64,000 nt of DNA from Defluviitaleaceae bacterium (GTDB lineage Bacteria > Bacillota > Clostridia > Lachnospirales > WQUN01). Location of the stretch: positions 46,867 to 110,866 of the forward strand of contig WRBD01000003.1 in NCBI GenBank assembly GCA_009779835.1. The letters are read 5' to 3'. This document shows positions 19,172 through 60,323 of this stretch, piece by piece. Within the stretch, counting starts at the first letter, position 1. Each line of letters opens with the position of its first letter. The notes under the pieces were generated by a model. That model had not been told where the DNA came from and made no database searches. It worked only from the letters and a program-made list of their open reading frames with translations. Made by a program: the position numbers and the translations under genes.

Positions 19172-19546
19172 ATGAAAATAAAAAATCTGTTATTGGTCGT
19201 TTTGGGCGTTGTTTCATTAATATTGGGTCTGGTAGGCATTATTTTGCCGGTATTGCCTACCACTCCCTTTGTTTTGCTATCAGCTGCTTGTTTTTCAACA
19301 AGCAACAAGAAACTCGACGATTGGCTACGTCGAAGCCGTATATTCGCCCCTTTCATTGAAAATTACCGCACAGGTCAAGGTATCAGCAGATTGCATAAAA
19401 TCGGCAGTATAACCTTTCTTTGGACAGGTTTGATTATTTCTATGTTAATCACGAGAACAACTTTTATTTTTGCCACTTTGAGTATAGTAGGGATAGGTGT
19501 CACCGTTCATCTTTTGATGATTAAAACGAAAAAAAAGGACGCTTAA
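19172..19546 (+). CDS. ybaN: YbaN (DUF454) membrane protein
   Basis: A 124-residue inner membrane protein. The signature is an N-terminal helix pair with LGLVGIILPVLPTTPFVLLSAACFS, followed by SNKKLDDWL and a C-terminal hydrophobic pair. This is the DUF454/YbaN family, of unknown function. It begins 5 nt after katG, so the two form a two-gene transcription unit and may have moved together. The 3' end lies inside a hairpin that terminates the opposing RNA transcript. Confidence 0.9.
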   Translation: MKIKNLLLVVLGVVSLILGLVGIILPVLPTTPFVLLSAACFSTSNKKLDDWLRRSRIFAPFIENYRTGQGISRLHKIGSITFLWTGLIISMLITRTTFIFATLSIVGIGVTVHLLMIKTKKKDA

Positions 19547-19557
19547 AAGTAAGCGTC
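19529..19557 (-). terminator. Terminator of the minus-strand structured RNA (copy A)
   Basis: Stem GACGCTTA / TAAGCGTC with a 4-nt loop; on the minus strand it is followed by CCTTTTTTTT, a strong U-tract. It would end the RNA initiated near 19867. The ybaN stop codon lies within the stem. Confidence 0.8.
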
Positions 19558-19579: not shown

Positions 19580-19867
19580 CATTCACCTTCTTTTATTTTC
19601 AGTTTTTTGATTTTTTAAGTAAAGCCGGAGTCACGTGCCTCCGGCGGGTTGCCGCAACGCGCATAAAAGGTGCATGCTTAGGTAGCGAAGCCGAGCTGGT
19701 ACCGGAGCCCGGTGCGCTACCCCCTTATATTTGCGTACGGCGGGTAATACAGTTGCAACATTACTCAGAGGCTAAAGCGGAATCGGTGCGGTTCGTTTCA
19801 AGGCGCGAGGCCCCTTCCGAAGTTGGCAAAACCCGTACATGGCTTAAAACGTCTGTTTGATTGTTGC
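19580..19867 (-). ncRNA. Unidentified structured RNA, copy A
   Basis: About 288 nt transcribed leftwards from TTGACG (19897-19902), 17-nt spacer, TATTGT (19874-19879). The copy at 57086-57369 is highly similar throughout. Hairpins visible in the RNA sense include GCCGGAG/CTCCGGC with loop GCACGTGA, GGTAGCG/CGCTACC enclosing ACCGG-GCT-CCGGT, and a 5' GCAAC helix with GTTGC. Differences between copies are indels and pair-preserving changes, so the 96-aa ORF here is not conserved. It does not match tmRNA, RNase P, SRP or 6S signatures that I know. A strong terminator lies 20-50 nt beyond its 3' end. Confidence 0.75.
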
Positions 19868-19873
19868 AAATAC

Positions 19874-19902
19874 ACAATACCTCTTTACGTGTAATTCGTC
19901 AA
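19874..19902 (-). promoter_or_regulatory. Promoter of structured RNA copy A
   Basis: On the minus strand TTGACG, 17-nt spacer, TATTGT, then 6 nt and the conserved GCAAC start. The copy B promoter has identical geometry. Confidence 0.75.
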
Positions 19903-19926
19903 CACTTATTTTTCACAAATGTAAGT

Positions 19927-51319: not shown

Positions 51320-53836
51320 ATGAATATAAATACAAACATACCGGCAATTAATGCGCACAGAAATCTTACGAATATCGGAACGCGACAAGCGACAGCATCA
51401 CGGCGGCTTTCAAGCGGCTTCCGTATAAATTCCGCCGCGGACGATGCCGCAGGGCTTGCTGTTTCCGAAAAAATGCGCGCGCAAATCAGAGGGCTTGACC
51501 AATCGCTCCGTAACGCACAAGACGGGATTGCTTTAATTCGCACTGCCGAAGGCGGAATTGCAAGCATAAACGAAATGATTATTCGTATGCGCGAACTTGT
51601 TGTACAAGCCGCAAACGATACATCTTTTCATCCGGGCAAAATAATTATTATTGACGATGAAGAAATACAACATCATTCCAACAGAGATATGATTCAATGG
51701 GAAATAAATCAACTCATTGAAGAAATTGACGCGCTTTCTAAGAGAGTGCAATTCAACACGCGGAATTTATTAAGCGGAGATTTCGCAAAGAAACCACCGG
51801 TCGAAATATACCGCCCGATTATTTTGCCAACGTCTCAACAACTTGCACACAGCGTTATGGCAACGCTTGACCCCGCGCCTGTTTCTCCGTTTAACATTCC
51901 GCCTGTGCCTACAATTATTATTGATTCATCCAATTTCCGCCCGAATGCCGTATGCCCCAGCGGGACGTGGAGTGCAAGCGCGGGTGTGCTTACAATTCAT
52001 AACAGTAACGAAATAATTGAAATCAGAGATACGGATTTATTCGAGTATGGTTTTGAGATTGACCGCATTGTAGTAGCATCGGGTGCAGCCGCAAACATTA
52101 TTTTAAATAACGTGAACATTAACACAAGCACAGGCGCGGCATTAGATATGCGCGAAGCAACTGTGAATTTGTGGCTTGCGCACGGCAGCACCAGTAATAT
52201 GGAAACCACTCACAAAGACCGCGCCGGAATTGAAACAACGGGCGGCAGTCTAACAATAAACGGCACAGGCACACTTTACGCATACGCCACTTGTACTGAG
52301 AATGATGGTGACGATAGCGGCGCGGGGATTGGCGGCGGACTGAACGGAGACAGCGGGAATATTACTATACACGGGGGAAATATCACTGCGCGCAGCCGCG
52401 GTAATGGTGCGGGCATTGGCGGCGGTTCTTATGGAAGCGGCGGCAATATCACAATAACCGGAGGGAATATAACTGCTGTGGGCGGCGACGACGGCGCGGG
52501 TATTGGCGGCGGTTCTTACGGAAACGGCGGTAATATAACGATAACCGGAGGAAATATAAGTGCCGAAAGCAGCTTTGACGGCGCGGGTATTGGCGGCGGT
52601 TTTTACGGAAACGGCGGTAATATAACGATAACCGGAGGAATTATTACTGCATACGGTAGCGCTTTTGGTGCGGGAATTGGCGGCGGAGAACACGGTGACG
52701 GCGGTGATATCACAATAACCGGAGGGAATATAACTGTTCACAATAGCCACAGTAACAATTTTGGTGCGGGTATTGGCGGCGGTTTTCTCGGATACGGCGG
52801 TAATATTAAAATAAGCGGCGGAAATATATTTACCGAAAGCATCCAAGGCGCGGGAATCGGTGGCGGCATGGGTGGAAACGGCGGAATAATAAATATTTCA
52901 GGCGGAATTGTTATGGCAACAAGTGACAGTGCGGCGGCTGTTGGCGGTGGGCAGGATATTGCCGATTGGCTTATTCCGCCCGGCTTGGGTGCGATTTTAA
53001 CAATTTCCGGTGGCGTACTTGAACTTCTTCACCCTCACGACTGGATTGGCGGCGGTGACGAACAAGACCCTGTATCGGGCGGTCGTCACGGCATGACAAC
53101 ATACATCAACGGAAATTTATCATTTCTCGGCAATGCGCCCAAAATTCTCGCCGGCGTTTTTAACAGCATCGGCAATACGCTTTCTTCATATAAAATTCTT
53201 CTTGACACAAATTTACCGCCGCATCAACCCGTGTCGTTTTTGCTGTATACAAGCGGCGACTACAGAAGATTTGATGTAATAACCGACAGCAACGGCGAAG
53301 TTTTTGTATGGCTTACCGAACCGCCTACAGACCCGCCGATAATTATTGCCCCGGACAATAACGATAACAATAACAACGCTCGTGTTCCCAGACCCACGCC
53401 GCAAACGCCGGGCGATGGTTTGTGGATTCAAACCGGCGCGAACGCAAATCAAGGCTTGCGTTTGTACATTGAAGCAACGGATGCTTTAACGTTGGGGCTT
53501 ATTGATGTTGCGGGAAATCCCGTAATCAGCGTTCTTCATGAATCCGGCGTTAATATTTCGCCATTGCTGCAAATTTTAGACGATGCACTTACACACACAA
53601 ATATAGTTCGCGCAAATTTGGGTGCTGTGCAAAACCGTTTGGAATTTACTTCGGAAAGTGTTTTAATTTCTTCCGAAAATTTAAACGAAGCCGAATCACG
53701 CATCCGCAACGCAGATATGGCGCGCGAAATGATGTTCCTTTCCGGAATAAAAGTTTTACAGCAAGCGGCTGTTTCCATGCTTGCGCAAGCTAATCAACTT
53801 ACAAATTCCGTATTACAACTGCTACAGGATATTTGA
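51320..53836 (+). CDS. Oversized flagellin with beta-helix-like repeat insert
   Basis: 838 residues against about 300-450 in usual flagellins. Residues 1-150 (NINTNIPAINAHRNLTNIGTRQATASRRLSSGFRINSAADDAAGLAVSEKM) and the last ~95 (VRANLGAVQNRLEFTSESVLISSENLNEAESRIRNADMAREMM) are canonical D0/D1. Between them lies a linker, about eight repeats of GAGIGGG..GNGGNITITGGNITA (residues ~330-560) that should fold as a right-handed parallel beta-helix, a further beta domain, and a Pro/Asn-rich stretch. It would decorate the filament surface. The start has only a weak SD. A terminator follows. Confidence 0.9.
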   Translation: MNINTNIPAINAHRNLTNIGTRQATASRRLSSGFRINSAADDAAGLAVSEKMRAQIRGLDQSLRNAQDGIALIRTAEGGIASINEMIIRMRELVVQAANDTSFHPGKIIIIDDEEIQHHSNRDMIQWEINQLIEEIDALSKRVQFNTRNLLSGDFAKKPPVEIYRPIILPTSQQLAHSVMATLDPAPVSPFNIPPVPTIIIDSSNFRPNAVCPSGTWSASAGVLTIHNSNEIIEIRDTDLFEYGFEIDRIVVASGAAANIILNNVNINTSTGAALDMREATVNLWLAHGSTSNMETTHKDRAGIETTGGSLTINGTGTLYAYATCTENDGDDSGAGIGGGLNGDSGNITIHGGNITARSRGNGAGIGGGSYGSGGNITITGGNITAVGGDDGAGIGGGSYGNGGNITITGGNISAESSFDGAGIGGGFYGNGGNITITGGIITAYGSAFGAGIGGGEHGDGGDITITGGNITVHNSHSNNFGAGIGGGFLGYGGNIKISGGNIFTESIQGAGIGGGMGGNGGIINISGGIVMATSDSAAAVGGGQDIADWLIPPGLGAILTISGGVLELLHPHDWIGGGDEQDPVSGGRHGMTTYINGNLSFLGNAPKILAGVFNSIGNTLSSYKILLDTNLPPHQPVSFLLYTSGDYRRFDVITDSNGEVFVWLTEPPTDPPIIIAPDNNDNNNNARVPRPTPQTPGDGLWIQTGANANQGLRLYIEATDALTLGLIDVAGNPVISVLHESGVNISPLLQILDDALTHTNIVRANLGAVQNRLEFTSESVLISSENLNEAESRIRNADMAREMMFLSGIKVLQQAAVSMLAQANQLTNSVLQLLQDI
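52300..52995 (+). repeat. Tandem in-frame ~29-residue repeats in the flagellin gene
   Basis: Seven to eight units of about 87 nt, each containing GCGGG(T/C)ATTGGCGGCGG and AT(A/C)ACGATAACCGGAGGAA-type segments. They encode GAGIGGG and GGNITITGG blocks. The repeats are diverged at third positions, so they look selected rather than recently expanded. Confidence 0.85.
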
Positions 53837-56916: not shown

Positions 56917-57050
56917 CTATTTACCTCATTATATTATGTACTTTAACTTCGCGCCCTTTTATCACAATGTACCATATATGGCGCATTTCTTCAATCTCTA
57001 TTGCAAGGAAGACGCGGATTTGTTGCATAAACCGGATGAATAAACATGTA

Positions 57051-57079
57051 TTGACAAGATACTCATTGCGTGATATCAT
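57051..57079 (+). promoter_or_regulatory. Promoter of structured RNA copy B
   Basis: TTGACA (57051-57056), 17-nt spacer, TATCAT (57074-57079), then 6 nt to GCAAC at 57086. Copy A has the same geometry. The stretch 56917-57050 between this and the ATP-grasp gene has no gene; it holds that gene's leader. Confidence 0.8.
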
Positions 57080-57085
57080 GGATTC

Positions 57086-57369
57086 GCAACAGTCGAACAG
57101 ACGTTTTATGCTATGTACGGGTTTTGCCAATTTCGGAAGGGGCTTCGCGCCCTGAAACGAACCGCACCGCTTCCGCTCTAACCTCTGCATTATGTTGCAA
57201 CTGCTTTACCCGCCGCACCACATAAAAGGGGGTAGCGCACCGGGCTCCGGTACCGGCTCGGCTTTGCTACCCACGCATGCACCTTTAATGTGCGTTGCGG
57301 CACCCGCCGGGGGCACGTGACCTCGGCTTTACTTAAAAATTAAAAACCGCAAATAAAAGTAGATGAATG
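57086..57369 (+). ncRNA. Unidentified structured RNA, copy B
   Basis: About 284 nt, in inverted orientation to copy A and highly similar over its whole length, with single-base indels that break any shared reading frame. In the RNA sense GCCGGGG/CCTCGGC (57306-57327), GGTAGCG/TGCTACC with the inner ACCGG/CCGGT hairpin, and GCAAC/GTTGC (57086-57090 with 57194-57198) form. No U-rich terminator is obvious after the homology ends; a short GAATGC/GCATTC hairpin follows. The RNA family is not recognised. Confidence 0.75.
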
Positions 57370-57422
57370 CAACGACAAGCATCGCCAGCGCATTCGTCGC
57401 GCTTCGTGTGCACACCCCGTTG

Positions 57423-58364
57423 TCAAGGCACCGGAAAGACACACAATTCCGCCTGCTCTTGAGGTTCGTTAATTTCCATCTTATCAAGTGCATTTTCACT
57501 GTGTTTTGATGTATCCTCCACAGGATATGAACCTATCAACTCCACAGTCGTAGTAAACAGTTCCTCAAACATTGAAAAATCCCCGGCACTCCATGCTGCA
57601 ATGTTATTTTCATTTTGCAAATCTACGGCAACTGTTTCGGTAAATTTTAGCATATCACGGACGTTGATTTCTGTCCCAGGCCCTAATTCTTCGGCAGTAA
57701 GTCCTGATGAATCATTGTTTTCGTGTGCGAGAATAGGCAATGTTAGCCTAAAACGATTGCTACCCTGTGCCCAGTACAAATTGCGTGTGGATTCGTAAAA
57801 TAAATACTTTCCATCAATAAAATCTTTTTCCGTAAAACCGAATTGTCCCATAATGCCATTAAGTGGAGAATTATCCCCCCATGACTCCAAATCTTCATAT
57901 GTCCAACGAGTAACCATAAGCTCAAAATACTGATGATTGCGGAATGCATCGCTCCACGTTTCCCAAGTAACTTCTTCCGCAATAGGAATATACCAAATAG
58001 TTATGAATGTTTTATGAACCCTGATTTCGGCAATATGAAATTCCTCCGGAACGTTTGCAAGCAGATGAATTGTATCAAGTGATGCGAAATCTATATATTC
58101 CGTTATAATTTCGGTTTTTAAATCCGGGGAGATTCTGCCTTCTCTTGCTGCAGCATAATCATATAAAAACTCGTCAAGCGAAGTAAACCATAAGCGATTT
58201 ATTCGCGGGTCAGAAGAATACCTTCGCACTTGTGACGTATCATCCGTATGATATGAAGCCATAGATTCCTCAGTCGCGGCATTTTCGGGTTCATATTCCA
58301 TACACCCTGTTATTGATAGTAGTGCAAAAAGCATGGCGAGCATTGTTAAAAATCGTTTTAGCAT
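57423..58364 (-). CDS. Lipoprotein of unknown function, paralog 1
   Basis: 313 residues after choosing ATG 58364 (AGGAGG 10 nt upstream; the track start is too early). Signal peptide with lipobox SITGC. The body contains FTSLDEFLYDYAAAREGR, DTIHLLANVPEEFHIAEIRVHKTFITIWYIPI and LTAEELGPGTEINVRDMLKF. It aligns end to end with the next gene, a tandem duplicate. The C-terminal 40 residues (SKHSENALDKMEINEPQEQAEL) are unique. The family is unknown to me; the paralogs probably sit at the outer membrane face and may bind a ligand. Confidence 0.7.
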   Translation of the reverse strand: MLKRFLTMLAMLFALLSITGCMEYEPENAATEESMASYHTDDTSQVRRYSSDPRINRLWFTSLDEFLYDYAAAREGRISPDLKTEIITEYIDFASLDTIHLLANVPEEFHIAEIRVHKTFITIWYIPIAEEVTWETWSDAFRNHQYFELMVTRWTYEDLESWGDNSPLNGIMGQFGFTEKDFIDGKYLFYESTRNLYWAQGSNRFRLTLPILAHENNDSSGLTAEELGPGTEINVRDMLKFTETVAVDLQNENNIAAWSAGDFSMFEELFTTTVELIGSYPVEDTSKHSENALDKMEINEPQEQAELCVFPVP

Positions 58365-58443
58365 AATACATAGCCTCCTAAAAAAAGGGGGAAGCCGAGT
58401 ACACACAAACCCGAAAGGAATGTTTCTACCCGGCTTCTATGCC

Positions 58444-59292
58444 TTATTCAAATTCCGTAGTTGTGATTATTTCGTATTGCAACATTTCCTCAATCATTGT
58501 AAAATCCCCGGCGCTCCATGCTGCAATGTTATTTTCATTTTGTAAATCTACGGCAACTGTTTTTGCAAATTTTAGCATATCACGGACGCTCATTTCTGTC
58601 ACAATCCCTAATTCTTCGGCAGTAAGCCCTGATGAATCATTGTTTTCGTGTGTGAGAATAGGCAATCTTAGCATAAAACGATTACTGCCCTGCATCCAGG
58701 ACAATTTGCGTGTGCGTTCGCAAAATAAATACTTTCCATCAATTAAATCATTTTCCGTAGAACCGGTTTGCCGCATAATGCCATCCATAGGAGAATTGTC
58801 CTCCCATGACTCTAAATCTTCATTTGTCAAACGAATAACCAGAAGCTCAAAATATTGATGATTGGAGAACGCATTACTCCACGTTTCCCAAGTAACTTCT
58901 TCAGCAATAGGAATGTACCAAATACTTATTGCTGTTTCATGAACATGGATTGCGGCAATATGAAATTCCTCCGGAATGTTTGCAAGCAGATGAATTGTAT
59001 CAAGTGATACAAAATCTATATTTCTCATTATTGCCGCAGTGTTCAAATCCGAAGAATCTCTGCCTTCGCGTGCCGAAACATAAACATCTAAAAACTCGTC
59101 AAGCGAAGCAAAGCTTAAATGATTTATTCGCGAGGAAGAATATATAGGTTCACTATATTGAGAGACATCCTCTGCATGGCTTGAAGTCACCGGTTCTGTA
59201 TTTGATGTGCTTTCGGATCTGTATTGTATGCACCCTGTTATTGTTGATACCGTAAAAAGCATTGCGAACATTGTTAAAAATCGTTTTAGCAT
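58444..59292 (-). CDS. Lipoprotein of unknown function, paralog 2
   Basis: 282 residues with lipobox STITGC. Very close to paralog 1 over most of its length: LSFASLDEFLDVYVSAREGR, DTIHLLANIPEEFHIAAIHVHETAISIWYIPIAEEVTWETWSNAF and NNDSSGLTAEELG. It starts with the same leader and SD (AGGAGGCTATATATTATG). The intergenic spacer is also similar. The two clearly arose by tandem duplication, and the dockerin peptidase gene precedes them in the same orientation with a 59-nt gap. Confidence 0.7.
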   Translation of the reverse strand: MLKRFLTMFAMLFTVSTITGCIQYRSESTSNTEPVTSSHAEDVSQYSEPIYSSSRINHLSFASLDEFLDVYVSAREGRDSSDLNTAAIMRNIDFVSLDTIHLLANIPEEFHIAAIHVHETAISIWYIPIAEEVTWETWSNAFSNHQYFELLVIRLTNEDLESWEDNSPMDGIMRQTGSTENDLIDGKYLFCERTRKLSWMQGSNRFMLRLPILTHENNDSSGLTAEELGIVTEMSVRDMLKFAKTVAVDLQNENNIAAWSAGDFTMIEEMLQYEIITTTEFE

Positions 59293-59351: not shown

Positions 59352-60323
59352 TTATTTAGCACCGAAAGATGCTATGTCTTTTAAGCAAGTATCGCACCAT
59401 TCATCGAAGCTAAGTCCATTCATCACGCAAGCTTCACCGGGCCTGCATCTATCATCGCGTGCGCCAAGCAGATGTGATATTTCATGCGCAGTAAATACAA
59501 GATGCTTCGTAAAATCATACGTAAGCGATACAATCATATCATTGCCCCCATGAACTGCCAATCCAGCCACTTCAAAATGAGGCGGGTTTGCATTTGAGTC
59601 GAACCGGCATATCCGGTAGTTAACAAACCTAAAGGTATTTGTATTGCTCTCGGAAAATAGACCCATTAAATGCCCTGCCGACCTGTGGTGGGGGCGGGTA
59701 TGGCAATTTGAGCCATTTTGATTTAATAGTCCTCCACATCTTCGGGGGTCACAGATTGCATTATTTTCGGGAACAGAGCAACCGTCAATCATATTAAGGT
59801 CATTTGACAAGTTAATAGATTGTCGGATTAAATTTACATTTAAATTATTCCTGAATCCGGGCTTTATATAGTCCAAAACATTTATTGCTCTGCTAACGTT
59901 CGCTTCACCCCCGTCAGGATTTACAAAAATTCTGTAGCTCATATTTAAAAGGGGAATAGGAGTAGGCGTTGGTCTTGGGGTGGGAGTAGGAATGGGCGTT
60001 GGAGCAGGTCCAAGAGTTACCCTATGCCCCACTAACGCCCTTGCGATAAGTACAACGTCAGCTACATCTATCCGCCCATCCATATTAACATCAGCAGCCC
60101 GTTTGTTGATTCTATTACAATTACCAAGCCTACAAGGGTTGAGCAGATATTGCGCAAGAGCCGTCGCGTCATCACTTGTAATGCGGCCATCCCCATTAAT
60201 ATCACCCCATAGAATTCCACCCATAGAATATCCCTCACCTCCCGACTCTATAGCTAACAAAACGCCGGAAAACACTAGCGTAACTGTCAGCGCAAAGACA
60301 AGGAAATTCTTAGTCATTTTCAT
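59352..60323 (-). CDS. Secreted dockerin-bearing metallopeptidase
   Basis: 323 residues: signal peptide (about 1-25), two dockerin-type calcium loops (DINGDGRITSDDA at 41-53; DVNMDGRIDVADV at 78-90), a Pro/Thr linker (PTPIPTPTPRPTPTP), then a peptidase domain with H280-E-I-S-H284-L-L-G-A-R-D290. This is an HExxHxxGxxD zinc site, with Asp as the third ligand, as in snapalysin-like metzincins. CVMNGLSF is a plausible Met-turn. The dockerin at the N-terminus suggests binding to a cohesin scaffold, possibly a cellulosome, not in this window. Confidence 0.85.
   Translation of the reverse strand: MKMTKNFLVFALTVTLVFSGVLLAIESGGEGYSMGGILWGDINGDGRITSDDATALAQYLLNPCRLGNCNRINKRAADVNMDGRIDVADVVLIARALVGHRVTLGPAPTPIPTPTPRPTPTPIPLLNMSYRIFVNPDGGEANVSRAINVLDYIKPGFRNNLNVNLIRQSINLSNDLNMIDGCSVPENNAICDPRRCGGLLNQNGSNCHTRPHHRSAGHLMGLFSESNTNTFRFVNYRICRFDSNANPPHFEVAGLAVHGGNDMIVSLTYDFTKHLVFTAHEISHLLGARDDRCRPGEACVMNGLSFDEWCDTCLKDIASFGAK

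Follow-up and report, generated by a model that had tools for sequence, protein, structure and literature searches.

The window, by which we mean the whole stretch of 64,000 nucleotides of Defluviitaleaceae DNA analysed here, holds two members of what is, on comparison of genomes, a previously undescribed RNA family of ~250 nt, with about eighteen copies in the source genome. Both the fold and the self-complementarity of two hairpin loops are kept while the letters change, which suggests that the RNA works as a pair or a larger assembly. The family, its copy number, fold and strand, its linkage to an operon and its conserved palindromes can be read from the genomes themselves; transcription and pairing between loops of different molecules are what we infer from them. 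Taken as a whole, the best explanation, to which we give a probability of about two in three, is a structured RNA family that would be transcribed from its own promoter and would form a kissing-loop homodimer or larger assembly. The self-pairing loops are its most interesting feature, above the compensatory changes in the stems.

The two window copies, at 57040-57345 on the plus strand (copy B) and ~19580-19910 on the minus strand (copy A), form one repeat with 87% identity over 295 bp (Table 1). Aligned copies share a common layout: a promoter-like TTGACA-17 nt-TATNNT, ~250 conserved nt, the terminal hairpin and an A-rich stretch. The promoter-like sequence, whose activity is predicted, lies upstream and in the same orientation in 16/16 full copies of the source genome, and points to transcription of the RNA from its own promoter in the sense that this promoter defines. 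In about ten copies of this genome the RNA is followed by an RBS-like AGGAGG, which only some of them have intact, and by the opening ~16 codons of a small gene, ORF1. A scan found downstream terminators in 6/18 copies, compared to 11% of control stretches, which is suggestive only. As separate observations, most copies (for example L015, L057 and L065) contain a palindrome, ACACG-NNN-CGTGT, between the -35 and -10 boxes that resembles a repressor site, and in three G034 copies the upstream sequence resembles a sigma-28 promoter instead.

Table 1. Features of the two RNA copies in the window (positions count from its first nucleotide).
Feature	Position	Strand	Detail
Putative sigma-70-type promoter, copy B	57051..57079	+	TTGACA 57051-57056, 17-nt spacer, TATCAT 57074-57079
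Structured RNA, copy B	57086..57335	+	ends approximate; start inferred from promoter
5′ domain, copy B	57086..57198	+	conserved; P1 GCAAC/GTTGC closes inner helices; basis of model R1
44-nt hairpin, copy B	57228..57272	+	10-nt apical loop TCC-GGTACC-G; self-complementary hexamer 57249-57254
Terminal hairpin, copy B	57306..57327	+	loop G-CACGTG-A; self-complementary hexamer 57314-57319
ORF1 remnant, copy B	57363..57409	+	first ~16 codons of 69-aa ORF1, from alignment of copies
Promoter-like sequence, copy A	19874..19902	-	TTGACG, 17-nt spacer, TATTGT
Structured RNA, copy A	19610..19867	-	ends approximate
44-nt hairpin core, copy A	19681..19721	-	loop hexamer GGTACC 19698-19703
Terminal hairpin, copy A	19624..19645	-	loop hexamer CACGTG 19632-19637
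Intrinsic terminator downstream of copy A	19529..19557	-	GACGCTTA-CTTT-TAAGCGTC then T8

BLAST recovered 19 matches in the source genome, 16 full and three partial, the full copies being 82-91% identical, and a covariance model of the 5′ domain (R1) found 18 copies in this genome (G000). Across the family, the model was positive in 9/38 Defluviitaleaceae genomes, with 60 copies in G004, ten in G031, six each in G034, G036 and G061, five each in G029 and G002, and three in G021. Beyond the family it was negative in all the genomes sampled, under stricter filters, from the order (392) and the class (391). When the GTDB species genomes (257 Gb) were scanned for a pattern, 57 stretches were returned, all of them in Defluviitaleaceae MAGs. 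By our reading of their isolate names, which match a published MAG study (PMC7024585), the carriers are of termite-gut origin. Comparison of the whole window with Rfam 15 yielded only tRNA at gathering score; for the RNA region at a relaxed threshold, the best weak match was a 29-nt leader model below cut-off, and 11 homologous loci from eight genomes matched no family to E 0.1. The covariance models of OLE, GOLLD, ROOL, HEARO and raiA were among those unmatched at gathering score.

The earlier note on this DNA had been concerned with the terminal hairpin and the 44-nt hairpin, and held that compensatory changes between both window copies support an RNA fold and its sense strand. The sequences are as it described them. 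The terminal hairpin reads GCCGGGG-GCACGTGA-CCTCGGC in copy B and GCCGGAG-GCACGTGA-CTCCGGC in copy A, so that, from copy A to copy B, pair 6 goes from A-U to G-C and pair 5 from G-C to G-U; the 44-nt hairpin shows two changes in the same direction, a G-C to G-U and a U-A to U-G. The further statement that every change keeps pairing only in the promoter-defined sense holds for the G-U changes and fails for the A-U to G-C change, which pairs on either strand, and the sense strand is hence marked by the G-U changes only. All seven pairs of the terminal stem are kept, and none is broken, in the 16 full copies of the source genome, where the central pair is GU in six, AU in five and GC in five, and another pair is GC in 15 and AU in one. 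This conservation exceeds chance. Variation without compensation, which the earlier note had named as evidence against the fold, does occur for part of this stem in two related genomes, G034 and G029, where the lower three pairs are largely lost and GGGG/CCCC alone is kept. The terminal hairpin does not have the form of an intrinsic terminator, since it is followed by TTTACTTAAAAA and no U run. The claim was right in substance and understated in scope: the hairpin is a small part of a larger RNA.

Indeed, the RNA fold is upheld on a much wider alignment. In eight genomes, compared across genera, 95.2% of the cells of the 5′ domain are paired and 13/24 pairs have changed on both sides, and none of 500 shuffles equalled the domain in paired cells, in double-changed pairs or in covariation score. 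When the partner was shifted by 1 to 3 columns, the paired cells fell from 95% to 31-41%. The 44-nt hairpin has 87% of its stem cells paired, compared to 54% (maximum 66%) when arms were swapped between copies; one row of this test (GGCGACGACG TTGAGCTCA) is an unrelated chance match and leaves the result unaffected. The helices are supported by covariation beyond phylogeny, as befits a structured RNA. RNAalifold predicted 61 pairs on the 16 full copies of the source genome, while folding of single sequences was modestly better than that of shuffled ones (z = -1.64). The sense strand was likewise upheld, with -72.3 kcal/mol for the promoter-defined strand against -49.9 kcal/mol for the opposite one. 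Furthermore, G-U variants occur at 23 pairs and A-C variants at nine, which indicates selection on one RNA strand. Genomes differ in the loop that closes the inner hairpin of the 5′ domain (UUCG, GAAA and others).

Several structural variants were observed. At least 20 G004 copies (L203, L208-L211, L213, L217, L219-L222, L224 and others) have the same ~104-nt long-hairpin insertion in the 5′ domain, flanked by GCCATC and CAGGAAGG; one such insertion folds alone at -47 kcal/mol. Five RNAs (L023, L024, L075, L078 and L195), which we call class II, share the 5′ domain and have a different 3′ half that carries GATATGCGCATAT in all five copies, from three genomes. In class II, the partner TGACCAAGGC of the GCCTTGGTCAG stem is present twice, as if two folds compete.

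The evidence for assembly lies in the loops. A palindromic hexamer occupies the aligned position of the 44-nt hairpin loop in 85 of 86 distinct copies of class I, the sole exception being a G024 copy with AGATCC. The hexamer was masked in the search model; the training rows of the model had been chosen by their palindrome pattern, and the copies later found in G031, G036, G061 and G004 had not. Five distinct palindromes were found. Every copy of the source genome has GGTACC, and G004 has CGGCCG; GGATCC is the hexamer of G021, G029 and G034, and GAGCTC that of G031 and G036. G061 alone has three variants over three copies (TGGATCCA, TGGGCCCA and TGAGCTCA), one copy having GGATCC, one GAGCTC and one GGGCCC. 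A different hexamer drawn at random would be a palindrome with a chance of 1.5%. Because copies within a genome share ancestry, 85/86 does not amount to 85 independent events, and what counts independently is the small number of different hexamers. The terminal loop behaves similarly, with CACGTG in the source genome, CCCGGG in most relatives and TCCGGA in one orthologous pair, and is shortened to GGCC in G021; an automatic scan scored 37/86 terminal hairpins, a lower bound given that in many copies it picked a GNRA hairpin or a terminator. Since the central bases of such a hexamer are adjacent and have no way of pairing with each other in a single molecule, their symmetric covariation points to pairing between molecules. 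The loop of the 44-nt hairpin thus shows the sequence signature of a symmetric kissing loop, namely bases that covary as a palindrome without intrachain pairing.

The RNA can be compared with several known systems. OLE is about 600 nt long, raiA is a structured RNA of Clostridia that occurs both alone and near a gene, and the retroviral DIS is a short stem with a self-pairing 6-nt palindrome flanked by purines in its apical loop. GOLLD and ROOL are not known to occupy tens of loci in a genome. Few RNA homo-oligomers occur in nature, and outside viruses OLE, ROOL and GOLLD alone are well supported (PMC12286853). Cryo-EM showed OLE to be a dimer and GOLLD a 14-mer, ROOL and GOLLD are RNA-only homo-oligomers with symmetric kissing loops, and raiA was resolved as a monomer (PMC12286853). 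The symmetric kissing loop of OLE has internal bases that switched in evolution between the palindromes GGCC, GAUC and AGCU, and palindrome switching in symmetric loops has been argued for the kissing loops of both OLE and GOLLD (PMC12286853). Our RNA resembles OLE as a structured bacterial RNA with a loop that switches between palindromes, although the dimer, seen for OLE, is here a prediction, and it differs in being less than half as long, in having two palindromic hairpins near its 3′ end and tens of copies per genome, and in lacking an Rfam match to the OLE model. With GOLLD and ROOL it would share symmetric kissing loops, here predicted from sequence, but it is much shorter, occupies many loci per genome and has no Rfam match to them. 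The likeness to the DIS (for a general review, see PMC7357161) is the apical 6-nt palindrome flanked by purines; the DIS, however, belongs to viral genomic RNA and ours to a bacterial small RNA, there is no homology, and the dimer is only predicted here. Like raiA, the RNA is structured, found in Clostridia and both solo and gene-adjacent, whereas raiA is monomeric and our RNA has no Rfam match to it.

We propose that an RNA of ~250 nt would be made from its own promoter, with the terminal hairpin as its last element, and would fold into two domains, of which the 5′ one is closed by GCAAC/GTTGC and the 3′ one consists of two hairpins. The hexamers of both apical loops would then each bind their counterpart in another molecule, as symmetric kissing loops of a homodimer or larger assembly. 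Most copies stand alone and a minority form the 5′ leader of an operon of ORF1 (69 aa) and a DUF2922 gene (70 aa). Tentatively, and with less confidence than not, we also consider that this could be a new class of natural RNA-only homo-oligomer, with tens of loci per genome and two self-complementary loops driving assembly, in which different palindromes within a genome may sort copies into separate assemblies (GGATCC, GGGCCC and GAGCTC in G061).

The linkage to this operon raises the main alternative, namely that the RNA is a duplicated cis-acting leader, its solo copies being functionless, decaying remnants and the loop palindromes a by-product. In the source genome a single copy (L015) precedes an intact ORF1 followed by the DUF2922 protein (E 1.1e-9), and the order RNA-ORF1-DUF2922, with intact operons directly after the RNA, recurs in G021, G031, G034, G061 and G004; nine or so copies without the ORF also retain its first ~16 codons. 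Yet leader copies are a minority and most RNA copies stand alone (RNA to ORF1 copies are 18 to 1 in G000 and 60 to 11 in G004). A riboswitch or cis-regulatory leader would lie consistently upstream of one gene, which this RNA does not, a minority of copies elsewhere being so placed. Decay should strike every part alike, but in the source genome the RNA and promoter are kept and the ORF is gone. Moreover, solo copies in G000 and G004 share a 3′ end, TTTACTTA, unlike operon copies, some copies (among them copy A) have a terminator of their own at the frequency given above, and orthologous copies without the ORF persist between G031 and G036. We consider this alternative unlikely, if the strongest of those weighed.

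Regarding the operon itself, ORF1 matched no Pfam or NCBIfam family above cut-off, with one of 12 members touching DUF1659 at E 0.19. Its AlphaFold model has a beta-beta-alpha-beta fold (pLDDT 86) and no significant match in the PDB, and the protein hence gave no hint of RNA binding. In other genomes, a different conserved leader (around GTCCCTGC), unmatched by model R1, lies upstream of ORF1 and DUF2922 (ORF1 of L107, L108, L109, L113, L115, L118, L120 and L125).

Far less probable is a non-autonomous mobile element of the MITE or REP type, whose hairpins would serve transposition at the DNA level. The many dispersed copies per genome, some of them truncated (L017, L018), and the many G004 copies that end at contig ends would fit such an element. 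The alignment, however, shows neither terminal inverted repeats nor a consistent outer boundary, no match was found in the viral, phage and plasmid collections searched, viral contigs included, and the identity between full copies argues against a recent burst. In addition, six out of six G036 copies have an orthologue in G031 (72-95% over 482-1812 bp, several extending into the flanks), so that they resemble resident genes more than recent insertions, and the excess of G-U over A-C variants reflects selection on RNA. Slightly weaker still is the idea that a dimeric protein binds the loop palindromes at the DNA level, the hairpins being secondary. Palindromic hexamers are typical of such sites and the promoter spacer of many copies holds a further palindrome, but the loop palindromes vary from genome to genome and sometimes within one, unlike a site that a single protein reads, and the stems show the covariation of RNA helices. 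The hexamer also does not share its centre with the stem around it (usually 3 nt, hexamer, one purine), a layout that fits a kissing loop more readily than a symmetric site in DNA.

As for what a kissing-loop RNA of this kind would do, the operon linkage leads us to a weak working guess, less likely than not, that the small proteins whose genes follow the leader copies use it as a scaffold or are drawn off by it as a decoy. High copy number, the coexistence of solo and leader forms and the link to DUF2922 operons pose a new question, that is, what such assemblies do. A short RNA of this length that has two self-pairing loops and many paralogues, and whose palindromes are swapped in nature, is a directly testable system: it is easy to transcribe, and its natural variants are ready-made compensatory mutants.

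Other genes were noticed along the way. In both G031 and G036, an RNA copy (L189 and L198) is followed by a serine-recombinase-like gene (MxYGYCRVST...). The window encodes an 838-aa flagellin (51320-53836, plus strand) whose conserved ends are separated by a large glycine-rich insertion, and a further flagellin is encoded shortly downstream of RNA copy L007. Beside copy B, two similar adjoining genes for predicted lipoproteins (57423-58406 and 58444-59292, minus strand) are apparently a tandem duplication. A 323-aa secreted protein (59352-60323, minus strand) shows, by eye, dockerin-like repeats and an HExxH-type metalloprotease motif.
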